In this document: positions 1,256 through 14,383 of the stretch, piece after piece | How positions within the stretch are numbered: the stretch's first letter is position 1 | How the letters are laid out: every line of letters starts with the position of its first letter | DNA from: Ferroacidibacillus organovorans | GTDB taxonomy: Bacteria; Bacillota; Bacilli; Alicyclobacillales; SLC66 | Assembly: GCF_001642725.1 (NCBI RefSeq) | Contig: NZ_LSUQ01000024.1 | Coordinates: 1 to 38,565 of the forward strand | Reading direction: 5' to 3' | Length of the DNA stretch: 38,565 nucleotides | Translations under genes and position numbers: made by a program | The notes under the pieces: model-generated | Databases searched by the model: none | What the model was told of the DNA's origin: nothing | What the model saw: the letters and a program-made list of their open reading frames with translations, nothing else

Positions 1256-2050
1256 TCACAAAAGCTGTACGCGCTCCGGGTGCGTGTATACGGAAAAAGC
1301 GCCCCTGCGCACAAATCCGACGGTCGTCAACTGCAAATCGTCCGCGATCTGCAGCGCAAGCGCCGTTGGCGCCGATTTGGAGAGCACGATGCCGATCCCC
1401 ATTTTGGCGACTTTCAAGAGCACCTCCGACGAGATACGCCCACTAAACGCGATCACCAGTTTGTCACTCGTCCATTTCTCGCGAATCTGATACCCGTAAA
1501 GCTTGTCGAGCGCGTTGTGACGCCCGATGTCAAAGCGGGACAACAGCACCTGATCCACCGTGCACAGAGACGCGTTGTGCACGCCTCCTGTTGTGCGAAA
1601 AAGATCCGATGCGCGTTGCATCCGCTCGATCAGCGACACAATCTGCCTGGGTGCGATCACCGGAGCCACTTCGACTGGTTTGGCGAGCGCTGCATCCTGA
1701 TAAAAATAGAACGACTGTCGCCCCTTGCCACAACACGAGGCGATGTACCGCTTCCCAAACATCTGCGGGTCGATCGTGACAGGCGTCACGAGCCGGACAT
1801 ACGCCACACCGTCTTCTTCTGACAGCGTGAGACTGCGAATCTCCTCATACGACGTCAACACACCTTCTGACGCGAGAAATCCAATCACTAGATCCTCCAG
1901 ATCCGACGGCGTGCAGACGAGCGTGACAAACTCCTGTCCATCGACAAACACCGTGAGCGCATACTCCGTCACAACTTCGACTTCGCGCTGTTCTGTGACC
2001 CCGTTTTCATAGCGAAGGATTCGACGTTTCACAATCTGCGGCAAATCCAC
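1256..2050 (-). CDS. fdhD: Formate dehydrogenase accessory sulfurtransferase FdhD
   Basis: FdhD passes sulfur from a cysteine desulfurase to the bis-MGD molybdenum cofactor so that formate dehydrogenase becomes active. The protein has the family landmarks: an EYALTVFVDG N-terminal strand, DLVIGFLASEGV, the cysteine loop SCCGKGRQ (Firmicute form with adjacent cysteines), TGGVHNASLC, FDIGRHNALDK and the C-terminal FSGRISSEV and SKSAPTALA segments. The GTG at 2050 was chosen because AAAGGAG lies 7 bases upstream; it gives 264 aa, normal for the family. An in-frame start at 2122 would overlap fadF and has no better site. It follows fadF by 68 bases and is probably co-transcribed. No formate dehydrogenase structural gene is in the window. 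Confidence 0.95.
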   Translation of the reverse strand: MDLPQIVKRRILRYENGVTEQREVEVVTEYALTVFVDGQEFVTLVCTPSDLEDLVIGFLASEGVLTSYEEIRSLTLSEEDGVAYVRLVTPVTIDPQMFGKRYIASCCGKGRQSFYFYQDAALAKPVEVAPVIAPRQIVSLIERMQRASDLFRTTGGVHNASLCTVDQVLLSRFDIGRHNALDKLYGYQIREKWTSDKLVIAFSGRISSEVLLKVAKMGIGIVLSKSAPTALALQIADDLQLTTVGFVRRGAFSVYTHPERVQLL

Positions 2051-2118
2051 GACAGCACTCCTTTCGACGTGAGGACAAGGCAAGTCACCTCGCCTGGTCT
2101 TCATGCGCGATACACGGT

Positions 2119-4092
2119 TCAAATCGCCATGAATAGCAGTTCCGCGATATCATTTGTATCGATTTCCTCTTCGACACCCTTTGCCTTTGTTCCATCGATC
2201 ATCATCGTCATACAATACGGGCACGCCGTGGCAATGGTGGTGGCGCCAGTCGCAAGCGCCTGTTCGGTGCGCTCCACGTTGATGCGCTTTTCGCCCGTCT
2301 CTTCTTTAAACATCGAGCCGCCACCCGCGCCGCAACACATGCTCTTATTGCGACTGCGCTCCATTTCGAGCACGGTGAGGCCAGGAATGTGTTCAAGAAT
2401 ATAGCGCGGCGCGTCATACTCTCCATTATACCGCCCGAGGTAGCACGGGTCGTGATACGTAACCGTCTTTTCCACGCGCTGCTTCGGAATGATGCGTCCC
2501 TCTTTGAGCAATTCCGCCAAAAACTGTGTGTGATGCAGCACCTCAATGTCCAGTCCGAAATCCTTGTATTCCTTGGAAAACTGATTGAACGCGTGCGGAT
2601 CCGTGGTGATGATTTTTTTTACGCCGTACGCTTTAAAGAGTTCCACATTGCGCTCGACCAACTCCTGATAGAGAAACTCATTGCCGAGACGGCGCGCTGA
2701 ATCTCCATCGCTCTCTTCCTCTTTTCCGAGGATGGCAAAGTCGACATTCGCCTTTTGCAAAAGTTTCACAAAGGACTGCGCGATCTTTTGATTGCGCGGA
2801 TCAAAGGACACAGCCGTTCCAACATAGTATAGGTAGTCCACGGCGCCTTCCACATCTTCCATCGCGCGAATGCCAAGACCCTCCGCCCACTCCGCGCGCG
2901 CGGAACGCGGACGCCCCCACTCGTTGGAGTGACGCTCAAGGTTTGTGAACGTGCGGTTGACTTCTCCCGGCGCGTTGCCCTTGGTCAAGACAAGGTCGCG
3001 ACGAAGATCGACGATCAGACTGACATGCTCATTAAAGACCGGGCACGCCTCCTCACACGCGCGACATGTCGTGCACGCCCAAATCTCATCTTCGGTGTAC
3101 ACTTCGCCCACCAGATCAGGAAGGCTCGCCGTGTAATCCTCGCCGCCTGCGGCCATCTTCAAAAGAGACGGGCCCTGATCGACAAGATGATCCTTCATTT
3201 TCAGGATCAGGTACTTAGGCGAGAGATCCTTCCCCGTGAGCGTGGCGGGGCAGGATACATGACAGCGCCCGCACTCCGTACAGGCGTACCCGTCGAGAAG
3301 TTGCTTCCAACTCAACTGTGTGACTTTGGCGACACCAAACTCTTCCACCGTCTCATCCGACAAGTCAAGCGTTTTCAGCTTGCCGACAGGCCCAAGGTTG
3401 CGATAGTACGTGTTGAAAACGGCGCCAATCATATGCAAGTGTTTTGAGCGTGGTATAAAAACGAGAAAACCAAAGATGGATAGCGTATGGATCCAGAAAA
3501 AAACCTGCGCAAGATTTCCCGCAACGGCTGGCGACATGCCAGAAAACCAATACGCGACCAACGTTGACATCGGCGCGGCTGGCACGCTGCTTGCGCCACT
3601 CGCGACTGCGTCGAGCCCCGTCGTCAAGAAGAGTGTCGCCACGATGATAAAGATGAGTCCGAGAATAAAGCCCGCCTCAAACGTAGGTTCAATCCGCATC
3701 GGTCGCCACACGTAGCGGCGAATCAGCGCAACGATCACAGCCACCATGACAAACGCCGCAAACAACTCCTGGGTATGCGTGAACCACCCCTGCGTAAACC
3801 CTGGAATGTGCCTGCCAAACAGGTCAAAGCCAAAAAAGTCGAGTTCGCCAAACCCGAGGATGATGAATCCCCAGAAGATGAAAAAGTGTCCAATCCCTGA
3901 CGGTTCAGCCAATACCTTACCCTGTCCCAGCACGTATTTAAAAAAGCCTCTCATACGCTCTTCGCTGTGGTCTGAGCGATGCTCAGCCTGTCCGAGCCGC
4001 AAAAAGCGATAGCGTTGGTAGATACCCGAGAAAAAACCGATAAGTGCCGCAATCAACAAGACAGTAAACGCAATGATACGCAGCGGTTGCAT
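2119..4092 (-). CDS. fadF: FadF-type membrane Fe-S reductase (ETF:menaquinone oxidoreductase)
   Basis: This membrane protein of 657 aa is predicted to take electrons from reduced electron-transfer flavoprotein and pass them to menaquinone during acyl-CoA oxidation. The N-terminal third has about five hydrophobic helices resembling the nitrate reductase gamma (heme b) domain. Two [4Fe-4S] motifs follow, CTECGRCHVSCP and CTTCRACEEACP. The C-terminal half carries two CCG-type domains, with HDPCYLGR then MCCGAGGG, and ACPYCMTM at the end. The ATG at 4092 has GGAGG 8 bases upstream; an in-frame start 6 codons earlier is less well placed. The promoter carries a FadR-like palindrome, matching the known FadR control of Bacillus fadF. 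The role is inferred from family and operator. Confidence 0.9.
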   Translation of the reverse strand: MQPLRIIAFTVLLIAALIGFFSGIYQRYRFLRLGQAEHRSDHSEERMRGFFKYVLGQGKVLAEPSGIGHFFIFWGFIILGFGELDFFGFDLFGRHIPGFTQGWFTHTQELFAAFVMVAVIVALIRRYVWRPMRIEPTFEAGFILGLIFIIVATLFLTTGLDAVASGASSVPAAPMSTLVAYWFSGMSPAVAGNLAQVFFWIHTLSIFGFLVFIPRSKHLHMIGAVFNTYYRNLGPVGKLKTLDLSDETVEEFGVAKVTQLSWKQLLDGYACTECGRCHVSCPATLTGKDLSPKYLILKMKDHLVDQGPSLLKMAAGGEDYTASLPDLVGEVYTEDEIWACTTCRACEEACPVFNEHVSLIVDLRRDLVLTKGNAPGEVNRTFTNLERHSNEWGRPRSARAEWAEGLGIRAMEDVEGAVDYLYYVGTAVSFDPRNQKIAQSFVKLLQKANVDFAILGKEEESDGDSARRLGNEFLYQELVERNVELFKAYGVKKIITTDPHAFNQFSKEYKDFGLDIEVLHHTQFLAELLKEGRIIPKQRVEKTVTYHDPCYLGRYNGEYDAPRYILEHIPGLTVLEMERSRNKSMCCGAGGGSMFKEETGEKRINVERTEQALATGATTIATACPYCMTMMIDGTKAKGVEEEIDTNDIAELLFMAI

Positions 4093-4189
4093 GTTTCTTT
4101 CCTCCCTCACCAGACAGAAACCCTTCTTGATCTTATTAAACCACGATCAGCGAAGAGAACGCGAGGTGTCGTATTTTCCACTCCTCTCA

Positions 4190-4318: not shown

Positions 4319-5380
4319 TTGGTGAACCGTTTGTCCTCCTTTACACCGCTTTATTTGGATCATCTCGTGATGAAATCCGAGGTGATCCTCTTGGCTACTA
4401 AGATCAGCGAATTTAAGGGAAAACAAGGCTTATTTCAACGCCAGGTTCCTCAGGTACTTGAAACGTTGCAGCAGAATGCGTTCATTCAAAGCACGGAGTC
4501 GTCCAATCGAATCGAAGGAATCTACGTTTCTTCCAAACGATTGGAGTCAATTGTTTGGAATGCAGCAAATCCCGAGAATCGCCCCGAAGGTGAGATTGCT
4601 GGATATCGCGACGTTTTGAATACCATTCATACACATGCTGAACTCATTCCGCTCGCACCGAGCGTGATTCAGCAATTGCATCGCGATTTAATGAAGTACA
4701 GTGGAACGGGGGGCCGCTGGAAACTGATTGATAATTTTATTGAAGAGAAACTTTCAACCGGTGAGACGCGAATTCGCTTCAAGCCAACCCCCGCGTGGCG
4801 TACGGATGAAGCGATGCGGGAACTTTGTGACGCGTTCAAAAGAGCCAGAGATCGCGGCGATTTACCGGATTACGTCTTGATTGGACTGTTTATCTTAGAT
4901 TTTTTTTGTATCCATCCCTTTTCCGACGGCAATGGGAGAATGGCTCGTCTTTTAACTTTGTTGCTGTTGTATCAGAGCGGCTACGCTGTTGGAAAATACA
5001 TCAGCCTGGAAAATGTCATTGAGGATACAAAAATACAGTATTACAATACCCTTGAAATCTCCTCTCAAAATTGGCATGACAGTGCTCATGATTGCAATCC
5101 TTGGATCAATTACTTCCTCACCATGCTCCTAGAAGCGTATCATCGATTTGATAGTCGTGTAGGGACACTGGAGAGCTCCCAGAAGAGGGGGTGGAAAAAG
5201 GAGCGTATCCTCAACATCGTCGATGGTTTTATCGCCGATTTTACGATCGCTGACGTTGAGGAGTTATGTCCGGGGATAAGCCGGCCTACCATAACGAAAA
5301 CCCTGAATGAGTTGGGCCGAAAAGGCACCATCATGTGTATCGAGCACGGTCGCCACGCAAGGTGGGTGAAAAAGTTGTAG
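4319..5380 (+). CDS. Fic family protein (probable AMP-transferase)
   Basis: Fic proteins transfer AMP (or another nucleotide) to hydroxyl side chains of target proteins. The catalytic signature HPFSDGNGR lies at residues 199-207 of 353. The motif SNRIEG (residues 62-67) matches the (S/T)xxxE(G/N) inhibitory helix on the N-terminal side of the Fic core, the self-inhibited class II layout. The C-terminal 60 residues (from about IADFTIADVEELC) look like a winged helix, common in stand-alone bacterial Fic regulators. The start is uncertain: TTG 4319, GTG 4322, TTG 4331 and ATG 4370 are all in frame, and none has a strong ribosome binding site. No separate antitoxin gene is adjacent. Base composition is more AT-rich than the surrounding metabolic genes, suggesting acquisition. 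Its target is unknown. Confidence 0.88.
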   Translation: MVNRLSSFTPLYLDHLVMKSEVILLATKISEFKGKQGLFQRQVPQVLETLQQNAFIQSTESSNRIEGIYVSSKRLESIVWNAANPENRPEGEIAGYRDVLNTIHTHAELIPLAPSVIQQLHRDLMKYSGTGGRWKLIDNFIEEKLSTGETRIRFKPTPAWRTDEAMRELCDAFKRARDRGDLPDYVLIGLFILDFFCIHPFSDGNGRMARLLTLLLLYQSGYAVGKYISLENVIEDTKIQYYNTLEISSQNWHDSAHDCNPWINYFLTMLLEAYHRFDSRVGTLESSQKRGWKKERILNIVDGFIADFTIADVEELCPGISRPTITKTLNELGRKGTIMCIEHGRHARWVKKL

Positions 5381-5515
5381 AACTTGGAATGGTGAAGGAA
5401 CATGATAAATACAGACATTCCGTTAAGATGGAAACCCATGCGAAAGGTGTGATTATCCATCCAATCCCACATCAACGGCCGCGTTTATTCGTATCTTCGC
5501 ACACCGTACGGGATC

Positions 5516-6070
5516 TTGCTTGGTTTGTTCCTTGCCATCTCTTTTGGCATAGGCCTCATCACGATGATTCATACGCAATCATTGAACACAACACTTCCAT
5601 CAAATTGGCTATTATACGATCTTCCTTGGCTTGTGACCTCCCTATTCGGGTGGGTTCCCGTCGCGCAAAGCTTACACTACCGACGGACGGACGTGAAACT
5701 CACATTCGATGCGAACGACACCTCATGCTTGGTGGATAGCGGCCCATTTCAAGACTGGTGGCGGATTCACAAAAATTCTCCCCGTTCGATGAAAAAATGG
5801 AGAGTGCTTTGGCTGCTGTTGATTCTCATGATCAGCGGGTTTTCTGTCATCGATACATTAAACCTGTACCACGCGGTCATTTCTCCAGCCAATCGCTTGA
5901 GCGAGGTGTCAAAAATTACTGCCGTTCAAGGTTTATGCGATGCCTTTTTGTTGCTCGGACTCGTGGTATCTCTATGCTCGTTTTGGAACTATCCTTATCT
6001 TATTGCCCTGCGCCAAAATGGTCGGTGGCTGACCATCCAATGTAAGGATGTTAAAAATTTTCCAATCTAA
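5516..6070 (+). CDS. Unknown four-helix membrane protein, start uncertain
   Basis: I do not recognise the family. The 184 residues contain about four hydrophobic segments: ILLGLFLAISFGIGLI, WLVTSLFGWVPVAQSL, WLLLILMISGFSVID and LLLGLVVSLCSFW. A polar loop lies between the second and third. The reading frame is open upstream back to a TGA at 5450, and the codons between (encoding RVYSYLRTPYG just before the first helix) look like genuine protein. TTG 5516 may therefore not be the true start. An ATG at 5438 is in the same frame but is followed by MRKV and then the TGA. This may be a gene with a nonsense mutation near its start. It lies 135 bases after the Fic gene on the same strand. Confidence 0.45.
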   Translation: MLGLFLAISFGIGLITMIHTQSLNTTLPSNWLLYDLPWLVTSLFGWVPVAQSLHYRRTDVKLTFDANDTSCLVDSGPFQDWWRIHKNSPRSMKKWRVLWLLLILMISGFSVIDTLNLYHAVISPANRLSEVSKITAVQGLCDAFLLLGLVVSLCSFWNYPYLIALRQNGRWLTIQCKDVKNFPI

Positions 6071-6089
6071 AAATGTCCGGATTGTTCAT

Positions 6090-6353
6090 TTACCCAATTT
6101 CATCCAAGGAATCGAGTGGATGGACGCGTCCTTTTTGAAGATCTTCGTCCGCTCGTCGCTCGCGTTCTTGCCATTCCTCTGTCCAGTAGTACGCCTGATC
6201 AGGATCCAAAAGCATCATCTTCTTCGGTCGAAGTAAGATACCTTCCTGGCTGTCAATCACATCCACATAATCGCCTTCTTCAAGATGGAGTTTTTCACGA
6301 ATGATTTTTGGGATGGTGATTTGCCCATTTCGAGTGATTTTGCTGAGCGTCAT
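6090..6353 (-). CDS. AbrB/MazE-type DNA-binding protein, orphan antitoxin-like
   Basis: This 87-aa protein begins with a swapped-hairpin AbrB domain: SKITRNGQITIPKIIREKL and then EEGDYVDVI. The C-terminal tail EEWQERERRADEDLQKGRV is the acidic toxin-binding type seen in small antitoxins. AGGAG lies 9 bases before the ATG at 6353; two earlier in-frame ATGs (6362, 6374) are badly placed for that site. No toxin gene follows: only 12 codons after an ATG in the TAAATG junction (start 6089) before a stop, then the unknown membrane protein on the opposite strand. It may be a surviving antitoxin or a solitary regulator. It has its own sigma-A promoter. Confidence 0.8.
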   Translation of the reverse strand: MTLSKITRNGQITIPKIIREKLHLEEGDYVDVIDSQEGILLRPKKMMLLDPDQAYYWTEEWQERERRADEDLQKGRVHPLDSLDEIG

Positions 6354-6388
6354 GATTTTCATCTCCTGACTCATGCATTTTAGTAATT

Positions 6389-6583: not shown

Positions 6584-6829
6584 TTATCGGTTGCTTTCCA
6601 TCTGCGCCGCGATCGCGGCCAGCAACTTCATCCGATCAAAACCCTGAATCCACGTCTCGCCGATGCGAAACACCGGCAACGTTTCCATCTTCTGATCCCG
6701 CAACAGCGCGATGTGTTCAGGCTCTTGGTAAATATCGATCACGTCAAACGGGAGATGCAACGATCCGAGCCAAACCTTGGCTGCCTGACAACGCACTCAG
6801 GTCGCCTGGCTGTACATCTCGATGCGCAT
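6584..6829 (-). CDS. Glutaredoxin-like protein with in-frame UGA at the first redox Cys (candidate selenoprotein)
   Basis: The full frame is 81 residues beginning MRIEMYSQAT, then TGA (6799-6797), then VRCQAAKVWL. Glutaredoxin/NrdH proteins have a CxxC motif in exactly this place, so the TGA replaces the N-terminal, attacking cysteine (UxxC). The rest is a normal thioredoxin fold: FDVIDIYQEP strand, the cis-proline loop ETLPVFRIGE, and GFD before the last helix. The ATG has GAGGAGG 7 bases upstream; a start after the TGA would lack the first beta strand and the redox motif. A GGU-loop hairpin lies 14-28 bases past the TGA. The gene is 28 bases after kamE and appears to be the last of the lysine operon. 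The alternative is a nonsense mutation or sequencing error. Function would be thiol-disulfide exchange; the partner is unknown. Confidence 0.75.
6768..6782 (-). promoter_or_regulatory. Candidate bacterial SECIS hairpin
   Basis: On the minus strand AGCCAAGGTTTGGCT folds into a perfect 6-bp stem with a GGU loop (loop at 6776-6774). The loop begins 21 bases after the UGA at 6797-6799. Known bacterial SECIS elements lie inside the coding region, with the apical loop about 16-37 bases after UGA and a G in the first two loop positions; both conditions are met. The stem below it is interrupted by mismatches, so this is suggestive and not proven. Confidence 0.55.
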
Positions 6830-6857
6830 AAAAAAACCTCCTCGCGAGTCACTCTCA

Positions 6858-7601
6858 CTATTGTAACCCGCGACGGATCATCTCGTGAACAATAAACGAA
6901 GAAACCTCAGGCGCCAGCGTCCCCGACCCAAAGCCCGCGTCATAACCGAGCTCAAGCGCAAGCTCATGGCCAATGCGCGGCCCCCCACAAATCACAATCA
7001 GCTTTGAGCGCAAGCCTTCCGCTTCCAGCATGTCGACGAGTTCACCGAGGTTTGAGATGTGCACATCCTTTTGCGTCACCACCTGCGAAACCAGGATCGC
7101 ATCCGCGTTTAGCTCGCGCGCCTTGCGCACCAACACTTCATTCTCCACCTGGCTCCCCAGGTTGTACGCGTCAATCTCCGGATACCGCTCAAGCCCATAC
7201 TCTCCCGCGTATCCCTTCATATTCATGATCGCATCAATCCCGACCGTGTGCGCATCCGTCCCCGTGCACGCGCCGATCACCACGATCTTGCGCTTGATCT
7301 TCTCGCGGATGAGCGCGTTGACCTCGACGAACGAGAGCACGGGGCTCTCCACTTTCGGCACGCGAATCGACGTGTAATCCACCTCGGTCACGACCTTGCC
7401 ATACAGCACAAAAAAGCTCATCTGCTCTCCCAAGTCCGCCATGTGCACAACCTGCGGTTCAAGCAGCCCCATGCCCGACGCCACCTGCCGGGCGCACTCG
7501 CGCGCCTCTTCGCCAAAAGGTACCGGGAGCGAAAAGCTCACCTGCACAACACCGTCATGGAGCGTATCGCCATAAGGCTTGACGCGCGTCAAATCATTCA
7601 C
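6858..7601 (-). CDS. kamE: D-lysine 5,6-aminomutase beta subunit
   Basis: KamE carries the cobalamin-binding Rossmann domain of the adenosylcobalamin- and PLP-dependent lysine 5,6-aminomutase, which moves the terminal amino group of lysine or beta-lysine. The motif TGTDAHTVGIDAIMN contains the base-off cobalamin His118. Lys129, in NMKGYAGEYG, sits 11 residues later, the spacing of the His133/Lys144 pair in the characterised enzyme, so it should form the PLP aldimine. At 247 aa it is near the usual length. The ATG at 7601 overlaps the kamD stop by four bases (ATGA), indicating translational coupling that suits a 1:1 complex. Confidence 0.95.
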   Translation of the reverse strand: MNDLTRVKPYGDTLHDGVVQVSFSLPVPFGEEARECARQVASGMGLLEPQVVHMADLGEQMSFFVLYGKVVTEVDYTSIRVPKVESPVLSFVEVNALIREKIKRKIVVIGACTGTDAHTVGIDAIMNMKGYAGEYGLERYPEIDAYNLGSQVENEVLVRKARELNADAILVSQVVTQKDVHISNLGELVDMLEAEGLRSKLIVICGGPRIGHELALELGYDAGFGSGTLAPEVSSFIVHEMIRRGLQ

Positions 7602-9211
7602 GCGTTGACCCCCTCACTTTCCCGCGCAACATGGCCGGCGTCTGTCTCATCGAGCTTTAGCGCAGCGCGCAGCGCGTCTTCCAGCGGATTGAAGTAATCC
7701 TGCTCGCGCAGCACCACGCCGCGCAGCCCTTTGCCACTCTCAAGCGTTCGCTTCACATCCGCAAACTCGCCTTCTGCAATGGCCTGAAACAAACCCTTCG
7801 ACCGCACATCGCGTAAAAGATCAAGCGCCTCATCCAGCACCTGGCGCGCGCGCGCCACCATCTTTCCCTCCGGGTGGAACATCAGCTCATCGCCCAAATG
7901 GCGCGCATTGTTGAAAATATAGCGCGCCGCTTCGAGCGCAAGCTGCCGATCGTGAATCAGCGGGGTATGGATCGCCTCGGTCATCATGCCAAGCAGTTGG
8001 ATGCCTTGCCCCGACGCCACGCCAACCAGGTTGAACAACGCGTCTTGCACGTGGCCGCGAAAAATGTTGCCCGTCATGTGCTTCGTCGGGGGCATATACT
8101 TGAGCGGCGCTTCCGGGAAGATTTCGCGCGCCATCAGCGCCTGCGCCCACTCGAGAAGAAGTCCGTCTTCTATCTCCGGGTCCATCTCAAACGCGTGCCC
8201 AAGCCCCAGTTGGCTTGACGGAAGTCCTGAGCGAAACGCCAGTTGCTCATTGATCAACTGTGACGCAAGCACGGTGTGTGCGGATTGCACCGCATCTGCC
8301 GTGGTGAGGTAGTTGTCCTCACCCGTGTTGATGATGATCCCGGCATACGCGTTGATCATACGGCTAAACGATTGGTCGACAAGCGTCCGCTGCATGTTGA
8401 TGTCGCGAAAAAGGATGCCGTACAGCGCGTCATTGAGCATCACGTCAAGCCGCTCAAGCGCCCCCATCGCAGCGATTTCTGGCATGCAAAGCCCCGAGCA
8501 GTAGTTGCACAGGCGGATATAGCGGCCGAGCGATTCACCGATCTCGTCGAGCGCCGCGCGCATGATTTTAAAGTTCTCCTGCGTGGCGTACGTTCCGCCA
8601 AAGCCCTCCGTCGTCGCCCCATACGGCACGTAGTCAAGCAGCGACTGACCTGTGCTGCGGATGACCGCGATGATATCCGCCCCTTGGCTTGCCGCGGCGC
8701 GCGCCTGCACGACATCTTCATAGATATTACCTGTCGCGACAATCACGTAGAGAAGCGGTGACTGCCCGCCTGAGAGACGTGCGAGATACGCCTCGCGCTG
8801 TGTGCGTTGCGCCGCAATCCGCGCAAGCGCCTCGACTGCCAACTGCGCCCCGCGCGCGCGAATCTCCGCTTCTGGCAGCGTTTGAAACGAGAGAATGTCT
8901 GCATCGCCGCGCGCCACATCACTGCACAGCGCCGCCACATCGCCCCCTGTTTGCGCCAAGGCCTGTATGAAGTAGCGAGTAACCCCGCGCGCCAGCTTCC
9001 CCTGCTTTAGCACCTGATCGACCATCAGGTTCGCTACCGGGACGCCTTCCTCATCCACACCGTCGACACCGAGCAACCGCAAGACCGTGCGCTCCACGGC
9101 CACCGTCGAACGCTTGCGAATATAGCGCGTGACATCATCGGCGATGCGCGACGCCTCCGCGCGCGCTTCTTCAATCTTCCCTTCTGCAAGCAACATCTTC
9201 GCAGTCGGCAC
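7598..9211 (-). CDS. kamD: D-lysine 5,6-aminomutase alpha subunit
   Basis: This 537-aa protein forms the TIM-barrel catalytic half of lysine 5,6-aminomutase. It begins VPTAKMLLAEGKIEEAR. Recognisable alpha-subunit segments include SGGQSPLLYVIVATGNIYEDVV, YVPYGATTEGFGGT, LCNYCSGLCMPEIA and PPTKHMTGNIFRGH. The GTG at 9211 was chosen because GGAGG lies 9 bases upstream and the reading beyond it overlaps kamC without conservation. It overlaps the kamC end by 41 bases and the kamE start by 4. The subunit pairs with KamE and needs PLP and adenosylcobalamin. KamB and KamC, encoded just upstream, are expected to reactivate the enzyme when the cofactor is inactivated. Confidence 0.95.
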   Translation of the reverse strand: MPTAKMLLAEGKIEEARAEASRIADDVTRYIRKRSTVAVERTVLRLLGVDGVDEEGVPVANLMVDQVLKQGKLARGVTRYFIQALAQTGGDVAALCSDVARGDADILSFQTLPEAEIRARGAQLAVEALARIAAQRTQREAYLARLSGGQSPLLYVIVATGNIYEDVVQARAAASQGADIIAVIRSTGQSLLDYVPYGATTEGFGGTYATQENFKIMRAALDEIGESLGRYIRLCNYCSGLCMPEIAAMGALERLDVMLNDALYGILFRDINMQRTLVDQSFSRMINAYAGIIINTGEDNYLTTADAVQSAHTVLASQLINEQLAFRSGLPSSQLGLGHAFEMDPEIEDGLLLEWAQALMAREIFPEAPLKYMPPTKHMTGNIFRGHVQDALFNLVGVASGQGIQLLGMMTEAIHTPLIHDRQLALEAARYIFNNARHLGDELMFHPEGKMVARARQVLDEALDLLRDVRSKGLFQAIAEGEFADVKRTLESGKGLRGVVLREQDYFNPLEDALRAALKLDETDAGHVARESEGVNA

Positions 9212-10793
9212 CCTGCATCCCCTCCACGTCTTCACTCTGCCCATCCCCGCGCATAAACCTCGACGCCTCTGCGACAAGCGCCGCGGGAAGCCCAAGCCAG
9301 GCGGCGACTGCGATCCCTTGTCGCAGCTCAGTCCCCGTCGCCTTTGTCAATCGGTAATCCATATGCGTCTTGAGATCTTCCGGCGTGTGACACATCGCAA
9401 GCGCCTCTTTGCTGATCCCGCGCACGGTGAGGTGCGTCGCACCCGGCAAACGCCGCGAAAAGTGCGTCACTGCAAAAGTGACGCCGCTGCGCGCCGTCTG
9501 ACGCTTTTGCAAGATCGCGAAAAGCAGCGCCTCGCCCTCCTGCGGATTCGTCGCGCGCCCCACTTCATCCAGGCACAAAAAGACCTCTTCCTCCGCGAGC
9601 GCTTCCTTGATCGCGAGCACCTCCGCCGCAAACGTGGAGATGCCCGCGTCCAGCGCCTGCTGGTCGCCGCCGATATAGCGCAGCGCCTTGTAGAGCGGCG
9701 CGCGATACGCCGAGGCATACACAGGCGCGCCCCACTGGTGCAGCAGTTGCGCGCTGAGCAGCGTGCGAAGCGCAGCGCTCTTTCCACCCATGTTCATCCC
9801 GGTCAGCAGCGTGACACGCGTTTTGAGCGCGATATCCACAGGTTGAAACGCAGCATAAAAAGGGGGGCGTCCGGCATACAGCTCCGGCGCGTCACCAAGC
9901 TCTGACCACACAAACCCGGCGCGCTGCCTTGCCGCGACACGTCCGAAAAGATCATCCAGCCGCCCGATCTGCACCATCAGCGCGTCCAGCGTCTGCGAAT
10001 CTTTCGCAAGAGTCGCTGAGACGCGCGCGAGCACCTCTGCGCGCAACCGTCGAACGACCCCTTCGCACGCGTCGCGTTGCGCCGTTGCGCGCGTCAGCGC
10101 GGCATCTTCCACCACATCGTACACCCGCTCTTCGCGCGTCGTAAGGCGCAGTCGCAGACGCGGATCACGCAGCATCTCTGCTTCGCGCGCGTCATAAAGC
10201 GGCGCGATCAGCGTGCCGTCGCGGCGCATGGCGCGACCGTACGCTTCGTGAAGCGCGCGACTCACGTTTCGCTTCCCTTGATCAAGCGCCAGGCGCGCGC
10301 GCGCGGATGCATCCGACGCCGCACGGAGCGTAGCGTCCAGCGCATCAAGACAAAAGGCAGGCTCCCCGCCGACAAGCTGAATGAAAGGTGGCGCCGCCGC
10401 ACTGTCCCACCAAGAAAAGCGCAGTGACGCCTGTGCCAACGCGGCGTCAAGAGCGATTGCCAAATGGATTGCGCGATGGAGCGTCGCGAGTTGCGCCTCC
10501 GAGAGTGTGCGTCCTTGCGCAACAGCGGCGCACGCCGCTTCCGTATCGGGAAACAGATCGAGCAACTCTGCCAGACGCTCGTAAAGCGACGCGCGTTCAG
10601 GCGACGAGTAGGAAAACGCTGCATCAAGCGCCCGCGCGTCTGCCTGATCGCACCGCCACGCTTCCTCATCCCCCAGGGAAAACGGCCCACGCGCGCTGCG
10701 ATACGTAGCGCCGCACGCCGTTCGCGTCGGAAACAGCGTCTGCAGCGTTCCCCACGCCACGTAGGCGTCCGTCTCAGCCGTCGTAAAGCGCAC
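9171..10793 (-). CDS. kamC: Lysine 5,6-aminomutase reactivase ATPase (MutS-like)
   Basis: The C-terminal half is a MutS-family ATPase: Walker A TGMNMGGKS, Walker B EVFLCLDEVGRATNP, and a downstream VTHFSR switch. The N-terminal half is a poorly conserved helical lever region. MutS homologues between kamA and kamD are a hallmark of lysine-fermentation operons and are assigned as the ATPase that reactivates the B12 mutase; I infer the same job here, not mismatch repair. Start choice: GTG 10793 lies 9 bases after GGAGG, whereas ATG 10799 is only 3 bases away; both are possible. The gene overlaps kamB by about 20 bases and kamD by 41. Length (540 aa) is usual for KamC. Confidence 0.85.
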   Translation of the reverse strand: MRFTTAETDAYVAWGTLQTLFPTRTACGATYRSARGPFSLGDEEAWRCDQADARALDAAFSYSSPERASLYERLAELLDLFPDTEAACAAVAQGRTLSEAQLATLHRAIHLAIALDAALAQASLRFSWWDSAAAPPFIQLVGGEPAFCLDALDATLRAASDASARARLALDQGKRNVSRALHEAYGRAMRRDGTLIAPLYDAREAEMLRDPRLRLRLTTREERVYDVVEDAALTRATAQRDACEGVVRRLRAEVLARVSATLAKDSQTLDALMVQIGRLDDLFGRVAARQRAGFVWSELGDAPELYAGRPPFYAAFQPVDIALKTRVTLLTGMNMGGKSAALRTLLSAQLLHQWGAPVYASAYRAPLYKALRYIGGDQQALDAGISTFAAEVLAIKEALAEEEVFLCLDEVGRATNPQEGEALLFAILQKRQTARSGVTFAVTHFSRRLPGATHLTVRGISKEALAMCHTPEDLKTHMDYRLTKATGTELRQGIAVAAWLGLPAALVAEASRFMRGDGQSEDVEGMQGADCEDVACRRED

Positions 10794-11904
10794 CCGCATC
10801 CACCTCCATCGCGTCGACCACAGGGACATTCACCTCTGCCTTGAGCGCGCGCATCAGCGCGCCGCGTTCAAGGCGTTGCCCGCCGCGCGGCGTCATCGGA
10901 TTGACCGCGACACCAAGCAATGGAACAGACTTCAAGACGCGCAGTCGGTGTCCCCCACGCGCAAACTGCCGCATGGTCTCATCGCTGCAAAAAAGATGGG
11001 CGGCACTGCGCACAATCACCACCTGCGGACGCCTTTGCGCCGCGACGCGCGCAAGCCATGCGTCCGTTACGGCGCCGCCACAATAGAACACACTGTGCGC
11101 ATCCGTTACACGCCCGTCTCGCGCAAAATCGTCTGTGAGCAGACTGCCTTCAGGCAGAAAAAGCGGATCTCCCCAGACCGTCTCACCGTCGCGGTCACAC
11201 GGCAATGCGACAAGGCCATTTACAGATGCGAGTTCCGGCAGTTGCCGCGCGAGTTCCGGCTCTAGTTCGGATAGACGCAGGCGCAAAAGTGCGGATTTTG
11301 CGACCGCAACCGTCTCTTGGAGCGAGCCGCGCACGTTTCCCACCGCGAGAACGACACCATCGGCAAGCTCCGAATCGACCGCAGCCATCCGCGAAAGCGC
11401 TCCATCGATCAGCATGTAAGCCGCTCCTCGCGCAAAAAACTGCGTCTTGAGCGCTAGCAACTGCTCCTTTTGCCGGACGCCTGCCAAAACGACCGAACCG
11501 GGTGTGCGCGTCTGCCCGATCCACACCTCGCCTAAGGGCGAGGTGATCGACGTTGGCGCGTGCCAAGCCATGGCTGCCGACGAATCGGCATTCGCCGTGA
11601 TCACCGTCGCAACCCATGTCCCCTGTCGGCAGACGATCTGCGGCTTTGGCGTACCCAAGATCACGTCAGCCCGCTCGCCATCCACGCCGATGCTCACCAG
11701 CGCAAGCGACGCGCGAGGTGCGCACTGGAGCAGCGCGCCAAGTAGTGTCGTCTTCCCGGCATGCTTGTTCGTGCCGACCACGGCCAGCGCGCGTACGCCT
11801 AATGCCTCAGCCCGCGCCCAGATCTCCGTGATCACGTCGCGCTTCGCGAATACGTCGCGTGCCACGAACACGTCGCGCCGGTTTGGCGTCGCGCGCGACC
11901 GCAC
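10774..11904 (-). CDS. kamB: Lysine 5,6-aminomutase reactivase subunit
   Basis: A P-loop protein of 376 aa is found in the kamA-kamD interval, the position of KamB in lysine-degradation operons. The P-loop is VVGTNKHAGKTT at residues 42-53. The C-terminal part includes VVIVRSAAHLFCS and ends AMEVDAGALYDG. It is thought to act with KamC in reactivating the aminomutase; this rests on gene order and the family assignment. The start is the weakest part: GTG 11904 lies 13 bases after GGAG, a long spacing, and a GTG at codon 24 is an alternative. Residues 9-26 are three imperfect copies of a six-residue xRDVFx unit, an unusual N-terminus that may not be translated or may be recent. The stop overlaps kamC. 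Confidence 0.8.
   Translation of the reverse strand: MRSRATPNRRDVFVARDVFAKRDVITEIWARAEALGVRALAVVGTNKHAGKTTLLGALLQCAPRASLALVSIGVDGERADVILGTPKPQIVCRQGTWVATVITANADSSAAMAWHAPTSITSPLGEVWIGQTRTPGSVVLAGVRQKEQLLALKTQFFARGAAYMLIDGALSRMAAVDSELADGVVLAVGNVRGSLQETVAVAKSALLRLRLSELEPELARQLPELASVNGLVALPCDRDGETVWGDPLFLPEGSLLTDDFARDGRVTDAHSVFYCGGAVTDAWLARVAAQRRPQVVIVRSAAHLFCSDETMRQFARGGHRLRVLKSVPLLGVAVNPMTPRGGQRLERGALMRALKAEVNVPVVDAMEVDAGALYDG
11827..11880 (-). repeat. Three imperfect 18-bp tandem repeats at the kamB N-terminus
   Basis: Three consecutive 18-base units share CGCGACGT(G/A)(T/A)TC and encode RRDVFV, ARDVFA and KRDVIT. They precede the P-loop domain of KamB. Confidence 0.6.
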
Positions 11905-11923: not shown

Positions 11924-13276
11924 TTACGCATCGCCATCCCATGTCCCGCCACGCATCGCCTGATTTTGAGGCGCCTGCCGCCCTGCACCCTCACCTTGGT
12001 GCCCCGCCGCGCGGTGCAAGCCCTTCGGCTCAAGGCTCAGTGCCTGATTGTTAAGCAGCTTCGCGACGCCAATCGCCTCTTCTTCGTGGTTGTGCGTGCA
12101 CGTCGGCGGACACCCTTGATCCTCGTAGACCGGCTCGTTGTAAACTGAGATGACCCCTTCAAAATTGCGCAAGATCACTTTGCTGTGCCCTTGCGAGATC
12201 AGGTATTGCGGCATGACCGGAATCTTGCCGCCGCCACCCGGCGCATCGACGACAAAGGTGGGAACAGCGTAGCCAGACGTGTGACCACGCAGTTGCTCCA
12301 TGATTTCGAGCCCTTTGGAGACGGTCGTCCGGAAATGGCTGATGCCCTCTGACAGATCGCACTGATAGATGTAATAAGGACGGACGCGAATTTTGACAAG
12401 GTCGTGCATCAGTTTTTTCATGATGTGCGCGCAATCGTTCACGCCGCGCATCAGCACCGACTGATTGCCCAAGGGCACACCCGCGTCAGCGAGTCGCTCG
12501 CACGCAAGTTTTGCCTCCGGCGTGATCTCATCCGGGTGGTTGAAGTGCGTATTGATCCACACCGGGTGGTACTTGCGCAGGATGTTGCAGAGGTTCTCCG
12601 TGATGCGCTGCGGGAAGACGACAGGCGCGCGCGTTCCGATGCGAATGATCTCGACGTGCGGGATCGCGCGCAGGCTTGAGATGATGTATTCGAGGATCTT
12701 GTCATTGACGAGCAGCCCGTCGCCGCCAGAGAGCAGCACATCGCGAACGGCTGGCGTGCGGCGGATGTAGTCGATCGCCGCGTCGAGTTGCGGCTTTGGC
12801 ACCGCGTGCCCGACAGCGCCTGAAAAGCGGCGGCGCGTGCAGTGACGGCAGTACATCGAGCACTGATTGGTGATTAAAAAGAGAACGCGATCCGGATAGC
12901 GGTGCGTCAAACCGGGCGCGGGAGCATCCTCGTCTTCTGCGAGCGGGTCCTCCATATCCCACGGCGAGCGAGACATCTCATGCGACAGTGGAACCGCTTG
13001 CAAACGAACGGGACAGTTCGGATCATCCGGGTGCATCAGCATCGCGTAATACGGCGTGATGCGCAGCGGAATAGTCTCCTTGACACGCGAGACGCCAATT
13101 TTTTCCTCAGGCGTCAGATTGACCACTTGCGCAAGATCCTCCATGGTATCAATCGTGTGCGTGAGTTGCCACTTCCAGTCGTTCCACTGCTCATCCGTGA
13201 CGTCCTTGTAGAGCGGAATATCGCGAAAGTGTCGCTGTTTTTTTCCGTACAAAATCTCGTGTGGCGCAAGGCTCAT
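11924..13276 (-). CDS. kamA: L-lysine 2,3-aminomutase (radical SAM, PLP)
   Basis: KamA converts L-lysine to L-beta-lysine, the first step of the pathway. The radical-SAM cluster motif CSMYCRHC has Cys139, Cys143 and Cys146. LSGGDGLL (from residue 182) and GTRAPVV follow, and Lys351 in PGGGGKIPV is the PLP lysine. CPPTC near the C-terminus matches the zinc-binding cysteines of the dimer. A Gly/Gln-rich tail of about 35 residues extends beyond the core. The ATG at 13276 overlaps the kdd stop by four bases. The product passes to KamDE and then Kdd. Length is 450 aa, slightly above the clostridial enzyme because of the tail. Confidence 0.97.
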   Translation of the reverse strand: MSLAPHEILYGKKQRHFRDIPLYKDVTDEQWNDWKWQLTHTIDTMEDLAQVVNLTPEEKIGVSRVKETIPLRITPYYAMLMHPDDPNCPVRLQAVPLSHEMSRSPWDMEDPLAEDEDAPAPGLTHRYPDRVLFLITNQCSMYCRHCTRRRFSGAVGHAVPKPQLDAAIDYIRRTPAVRDVLLSGGDGLLVNDKILEYIISSLRAIPHVEIIRIGTRAPVVFPQRITENLCNILRKYHPVWINTHFNHPDEITPEAKLACERLADAGVPLGNQSVLMRGVNDCAHIMKKLMHDLVKIRVRPYYIYQCDLSEGISHFRTTVSKGLEIMEQLRGHTSGYAVPTFVVDAPGGGGKIPVMPQYLISQGHSKVILRNFEGVISVYNEPVYEDQGCPPTCTHNHEEEAIGVAKLLNNQALSLEPKGLHRAAGHQGEGAGRQAPQNQAMRGGTWDGDA

Positions 13277-14331
13277 TGTGGTGTTCCTCCCCCGGTTGGT
13301 TGTGCGAGTTTCGCTGCAAAGACAGCCTGCAATTTGGGTTCATTCCGCACGAGTTCAAACGCCAGCTCTGCGTGCCCCTCTGCGTATCCGTTGCCAATCA
13401 GCATGTCGACGTCTTTGCCAACACCCTCCGCCCCGAGCGCGGCCGCTGTGAAGGAGGTCGCCATGCTAAAGAAGTAAACCAGCCCGCGCGTGCGGGTCAC
13501 CAGAATGGAAGCAAGTTCCGTGCCAGGTGCACTTACACAGTTGATGGTGACATCCGCAAGCACCCCGTCTGTCACATTCATCATCGCGTTCAGCGTTTGC
13601 ACAGGGTCACGCGCGTCCGCCAATACCACATGGTCCGCACAACCGAGTTCGCGCAGCGCTTGCGCCGATTTTTCGGCAGTTTCAAACGCGATCAGCCGCC
13701 CCGCTTCGCCGATTTTTCGGCGCGCCTGAACGGCGGACAGCATCCCCGATTTGCCGCCTCCGCCGAAAATCGCCACCGTCTGCCCCGGTTGACAGATGCG
13801 CGCCACCTGCGCTGGCGCCCCGCACACATCACACACAGCGAGCGCGAGCGCTTCAGGTAAATCACTCGGCAGGCGCGCAAGCAGTCCGCTTGAAAAAAGA
13901 ACGGCGGTGCCGCTACAGACGACTTGGCCTGTATCTAGATGAATCGAGTGAATCGCCTCTATGTGCAGCGGTGTGAGCGAGAGTGACACGAGGGTCGCAA
14001 TGCGATCTCCTGGCGCAATGGCCGCTCTATTTTCATAGTTGACGCCGATTTCCCTTACCGTGCCAAGCAGCATGCCGCCGGACCCAGTCACTGGGTTGTG
14101 AAGCTTCCCGCGCTCACGGATGATAGACAGGATGCGCTCGGAAACGGCGTGCTCGTCACGTCCGACATCCGCGATGATTTGCTGAAACGACGCGGCATCT
14201 ACATTGAGCGCCGACACGTCGATCAGCACTTCATCCTCGCTGCACACCGCTGTGGCGTCGAGCCGCCACGCGGGTTGCGGCATTGCACCGCGCGGTTCGA
14301 GCACACGCCTTATGCCGTATGGATCAGACAC
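13273..14331 (-). CDS. kdd: L-erythro-3,5-diaminohexanoate dehydrogenase
   Basis: Kdd oxidatively deaminates 3,5-diaminohexanoate to 3-keto-5-aminohexanoate with NAD(P)+, the step after the two aminomutases. The dinucleotide-binding loop is VAIFGGGGKSGMLS, in a medium-chain dehydrogenase-like fold with an N-terminal DEVLIDVSALNVD strand pair. NPVTGSGGMLLGTV is a family block. The GTG at 14331 is preceded by AAGGAGG with a 7-base spacer; the in-frame ATG at 14352 lies upstream of that site and is rejected. It is the first gene of the operon, about 40 bases after the expected sigma-54 transcription start, and is coupled to kamA by an ATGA overlap. Clostridial clusters usually place kdd after kamE; here it is first. 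Length is 352 aa. Confidence 0.93.
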   Translation of the reverse strand: MSDPYGIRRVLEPRGAMPQPAWRLDATAVCSEDEVLIDVSALNVDAASFQQIIADVGRDEHAVSERILSIIRERGKLHNPVTGSGGMLLGTVREIGVNYENRAAIAPGDRIATLVSLSLTPLHIEAIHSIHLDTGQVVCSGTAVLFSSGLLARLPSDLPEALALAVCDVCGAPAQVARICQPGQTVAIFGGGGKSGMLSAVQARRKIGEAGRLIAFETAEKSAQALRELGCADHVVLADARDPVQTLNAMMNVTDGVLADVTINCVSAPGTELASILVTRTRGLVYFFSMATSFTAAALGAEGVGKDVDMLIGNGYAEGHAELAFELVRNEPKLQAVFAAKLAQPTGGGTPQ

Positions 14332-14383
14332 AAAAAATCCTCCTTGCGCCATCGTTTCGTCATCAACGATCTTGCAAGAAGGT

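Follow-up and report, generated by a model that had tools for sequence, protein, structure and literature searches.

Glutaredoxins that contain selenocysteine (Sec) are already known. In particular, a selenoprotein glutaredoxin, Grx (PF00462), which has a UxxC motif, is listed as experimentally verified (Table 1 of PMC13188914). The UXX-star selenoproteins (NF041212 and NF041211) are also glutaredoxin-like and have a Sec motif near the N terminus. Other small redoxins are described by the curated families NrdH (TIGR02194) and YruB (TIGR02196). To our knowledge, the well-studied members of NrdH and YruB are cysteine proteins.

We analyzed a 38,565-nucleotide stretch of the genome of Ferroacidibacillus organovorans (the window), which contains a gene for a putative Sec-containing redoxin (Table 1). 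Its product reads MRIEMYSQATUVRCQAAKVWLG...MESNR*, and the sole interruption of its frame is a TGA at codon 11. We are highly confident that this TGA is decoded as selenocysteine, and with the Sec machinery, the conserved TGA, the hairpin, and the operon position described below, this reading is as secure as sequence permits. Sec would then take the attacking position within the CxxC motif (U11-V-R-C14). A preliminary description of this DNA had reported a complete glutaredoxin-like frame with a strong ribosome binding site, broken only by a TGA at the first residue of the CxxC motif (TUVRC). Its coordinates and frame were correct, the upstream sequence does include GAGGAGG, and the translation bears out the position of the TGA. 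It also stated that a gene finder would miss the first 12 codons. The truncation is real, but 11 codons would be missed, because the open reading frame that remains without the TGA has 70 amino acids and begins at a GTG at position 6796. In standard annotation, this predicted selenoprotein would be truncated or labeled as broken.

Like the selenoprotein Grx, the redoxin has a glutaredoxin domain above the Pfam gathering score (29.8 bits for PF00462, versus a gathering score of 22.9) and Sec as the first residue of its CxxC motif. It differs from that Grx in that its sequence is NrdH/YruB-like, with no match to any NCBIfam model at its cut-off, and in that its gene has a fixed site in the lysine-fermentation operon of one family, in the class of Tumebacillus. 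YruB and NrdH are its nearest curated families, but the redoxin falls short of both cut-offs (46 bits versus 88.55 for YruB and 41.5 bits versus 85.75 for NrdH). Its best solved relative is a structure of NrdH (PDB:1h75; E = 1.4e-5). It is also below the cut-offs of both UXX-star families (21 bits versus 66 for NF041212 and 15 bits versus 100 for NF041211), and its UxxC motif differs from theirs. A single-sequence structure prediction gave the order of strands and helices as b-a-b-a-b-b-a, in a low-confidence model (pLDDT of 64). From its family relationships, we expect the redoxin to be a two-residue (Sec/Cys) thiol-disulfide reductant that is nearer to NrdH and YruB than to the glutathione-binding glutaredoxins. 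It is a new and unannotated subfamily of Sec-glutaredoxins with a new conserved context.

Table 1. Features of the redoxin gene and its surroundings (coordinates within the window)
Feature	Coordinates	Strand	Details
Sec-glutaredoxin/NrdH-like gene (predicted)	6584..6829	-	ATG start, 81 residues plus stop; PF00462 above gathering score; 8 orthologues
TGA codon 11, very probably read as selenocysteine (UVRC)	6797..6799	-	TGA in 8/8 orthologues in the family and in 4 copies from family f28
Ribosome binding site GAGGAGG	6837..6843	-	7 nt before the ATG of the redoxin gene
SECIS-like hairpin AGCCAA-GGU-UUGGCU	6768..6782	-	6 bp; starts 14 nt, and loop 20 nt, after UGA
kamE, lysine 5,6-aminomutase beta subunit	6858..7601	-	NF052385, 397 bits
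kamD, lysine 5,6-aminomutase alpha subunit	7598..9220 (exact start uncertain)	-	NF052384, 870 bits
kamC-like reactivase ATPase with MutS domain V	9171..10829	-	NF052383, 227 bits (below cut-off of 300); PF00488
kamB, lysine 5,6-aminomutase reactivase subunit	10774..11904	-	NF052386, 234 bits
kamA, lysine 2,3-aminomutase (radical SAM)	11924..13276	-	TIGR03820, 629 bits
kdd, L-erythro-3,5-diaminohexanoate dehydrogenase	13273..14352	-	NF052381, 249 bits
Membrane iron-sulfur oxidoreductase, heterodisulfide-reductase type	2119..4110	-	The gene next downstream of the redoxin in six relatives
fdhD	1256..2122	-	TIGR00129, 215 bits

The redoxin gene begins 28 nt after the end of kamE. Its placement at the end of the lysine aminomutase operon, which was part of the preliminary description, is kept in all eight genomes that have the gene: in each of them it is downstream of kamE, beside kdd-kamA-B-C-D-E. 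(In one of these genomes, G002, about 770 nt separate kamE from the redoxin gene.) In six genomes, the next gene found after the redoxin, about 90 to 430 nt on, encodes the iron-sulfur oxidoreductase. In the F. organovorans genome, the oxidoreductase is 2.5 kb beyond the redoxin, with fic and other genes intervening, and in G001, where the contig ends after another 2.5 kb, it was not found within that distance. The intervening region of the window (4319-6374) contains fic, a gene of unknown kind, and a gene for a MazE/AbrB-like antitoxin. This block was probably inserted later, because the redoxin and oxidoreductase genes adjoin in most relatives.

Some kam operons do without the redoxin. In genus g7 (G007, G013, and G016), kamE is followed by the oxidoreductase with no redoxin between them, and G010 has kamE with no redoxin beside it; a single-sequence search found no match to the redoxin elsewhere in these four genomes. 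Because g7 keeps the operon without it, the redoxin is dispensable, and its gene is an accessory one. We also considered whether linkage to kam is a rule across the phylum, and we rejected this: among the other families of this phylum, 29 kamE loci had no convincing redoxin in the short regions just 3' of kamE (the best tblastn hit had E = 0.086; some of the flanks were short or masked).

What might the redoxin do? The operon linkage suggests a dedicated role in the lysine pathway, which we view as having, at best, an even chance of being correct. The redoxin would serve the enzymes of lysine fermentation, probably by thiol/selenol-disulfide reduction. Most likely, it would keep or restore the reduced state of the thiols, cobalamin, or iron-sulfur centers of KamA and KamDE (with the reactivase KamBC), and the membrane iron-sulfur oxidoreductase may receive electrons from the pathway in these cells. 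Both the radical-SAM aminomutase and the B12/PLP aminomutase with its reactivase are oxygen sensitive. A more specific and rather doubtful proposal is that the redoxin is a dedicated aid to the B12/PLP and radical-SAM lysine aminomutases (with KamBC), which it would keep working in the presence of oxygen. If this is true, then a dedicated Sec-redoxin would link selenium to lysine fermentation. We did not find any report in the open-access literature that links a Sec-glutaredoxin to lysine fermentation or to lysine aminomutase.

Alternatively, this could be a general Sec-redoxin that acts on ribonucleotide reductase, methionine sulfoxide reductase, peroxiredoxin, or arsenate reductase, and that lies in the kam operon by chance. 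We consider this a serious contender, if somewhat short of an even bet: its nearest curated families are NrdH and YruB, the related Sec and Cys redoxin genes of other families sit away from kam, and g7 has the operon without the redoxin. On the other hand, the linkage to kam persists in 8/8 genomes from four genera, while outside of genus g1 the identity of KamB and KamC has fallen to 31-42%. This lasting linkage offers a Sec-redoxin a concrete partner that can be tested; for this class of proteins, the physiological targets are mostly unknown.

The evidence for Sec begins with the conservation of the TGA codon. We searched for homologues among 300 relatives. The eight best matches, which include the window's own gene, are from four genera of one bacterial family, and all eight have TGA at the position of codon 11 (none have a cysteine codon). 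These genes are intact, and the seven other orthologues range from 94% down to 40% identity to the window's protein, with sequence conserved both upstream of the TGA (YSQ) and downstream. In a second family, f28, four copies of a Sec-redoxin have TGA at the same codon. (Two of these copies, L056 and L057, are from the same genome, G215, and neither is near kam.) The preliminary description had proposed an alignment of homologues to look for exchange between Cys and TGA, and cysteine does occur at this position in four genes of another family, f37 (L052-L055; G177 is Tumebacillus lacus). All four of these genomes carry SelB, so the Cys form there is not forced by a lack of machinery. Thus, as expected for a selenoprotein, the in-frame TGA aligns with the catalytic cysteine of homologues and is conserved in relatives. 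Could the TGA be a genuine stop codon, with the gene being a pseudogene, the sequence being in error, or a shorter protein being made from the GTG at 6796? A 70-residue frame does begin there, but truncation would remove the catalytic residue together with the first strand, and the TGA is common to eight genomes from four genera that have kept the frame on both sides of it. We consider a genuine stop to be very improbable.

The genome (3.03 Mb in 98 contigs, and 97% complete) also encodes the complete Sec machinery expected for a bacterial selenoprotein. As the preliminary description had suggested, we looked for selA, selB, selC, and selD, and all four are present. None of the findings that the description had named as refuting its reading turned up. 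The tRNA-Sec (selC) scores 63.3 bits, which is over the gathering score, and ARAGORN also calls it as tRNA-SeC. The selA and selD genes (567 and 388 bits) are adjacent to each other, and selB scores 372 bits. The hairpin immediately 3' of the UGA would direct SelB and tRNA-Sec to place selenocysteine at that codon. Furthermore, selD (L040, on contig C34) has an in-frame TGA (L040:1531) within the active site (TDKSGUGCK), and it is thereby another predicted selenoprotein of this genome, independent of the redoxin. It is exceedingly unlikely that the redoxin's TGA is instead recoded as cysteine, tryptophan, or another amino acid by an altered code or a suppressor: nothing specific favors this, of the window's 31 long open frames, 17 end in TGA (it is their commonest terminator, which implies the standard genetic code), and a true tRNA-Sec, SelA, SelB, and SelD are present, with the TGA in SelD being at a known Sec position.

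Sec has other users besides the redoxin, as selA is above its cut-off in 16 of 18 genomes of the family, including some without the redoxin. Formate dehydrogenase does not seem to be one of them in F. organovorans. The nearby fdhD had been taken to point to a Sec-type enzyme, but both full-length genes for the alpha subunit that are above the family cut-off (L113 and L114) are open frames without TGA. The presence of fdhD is therefore uninformative about Sec, and the case for Sec does not depend on it.

Finally, we examined the SECIS-like hairpin. We compared the 12 Sec genes (eight from the window's family and four copies from f28) to the four Cys genes from f37. In 10 of the 12 Sec genes, a 6- or 7-bp stem of the AGCCAA/UUGGCU type carries a loop, GGU or GGC, that lies 20 nt past the UGA; the other two retain a GCC/GGC core, with a loop of 7 nt. 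The hairpin is absent from all four Cys genes, although the residues encoded there are almost identical, AK(A/T)W(L/M), and are spelled with GCA/GCG-AAA. At the alanine codon of the stem, GCC is used by 12/12 Sec genes and 0/4 Cys genes, while GCC accounts for only 12-32% of the alanine codons near the Sec genes. The hairpin is just 3' of the UGA and has G at the first two positions of its loop, as expected for a bacterial SECIS element. Under synonymous recoding, a 6-bp hairpin at this exact site has P of about 0.03 for the window's gene, and P is about 0.01-0.12 per gene for the ten genes with the hairpin (these are relatives, so the values are not independent). The features given in the preliminary description (6 bp, a GGU loop, and a start 14 nt after the TGA) are all there, but folding of the single sequence is not significant. 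When the 40 nt are folded freely, they do no better than shuffled sequences (z = 0.29), and the minimum free energy of the whole region is not unusual compared to shuffles or synonymous recodings. Covariation in the stems of the Sec genes is slight: three pairs are invariant, there are too few changes, and shuffled alignments score equally well. Rather, the case for this putative SECIS element is its recurrence in the Sec genes and its absence from the Cys genes. The TGA in selD is also followed by a hairpin, GGUCC-GGC-GGACC, with a GGC loop.
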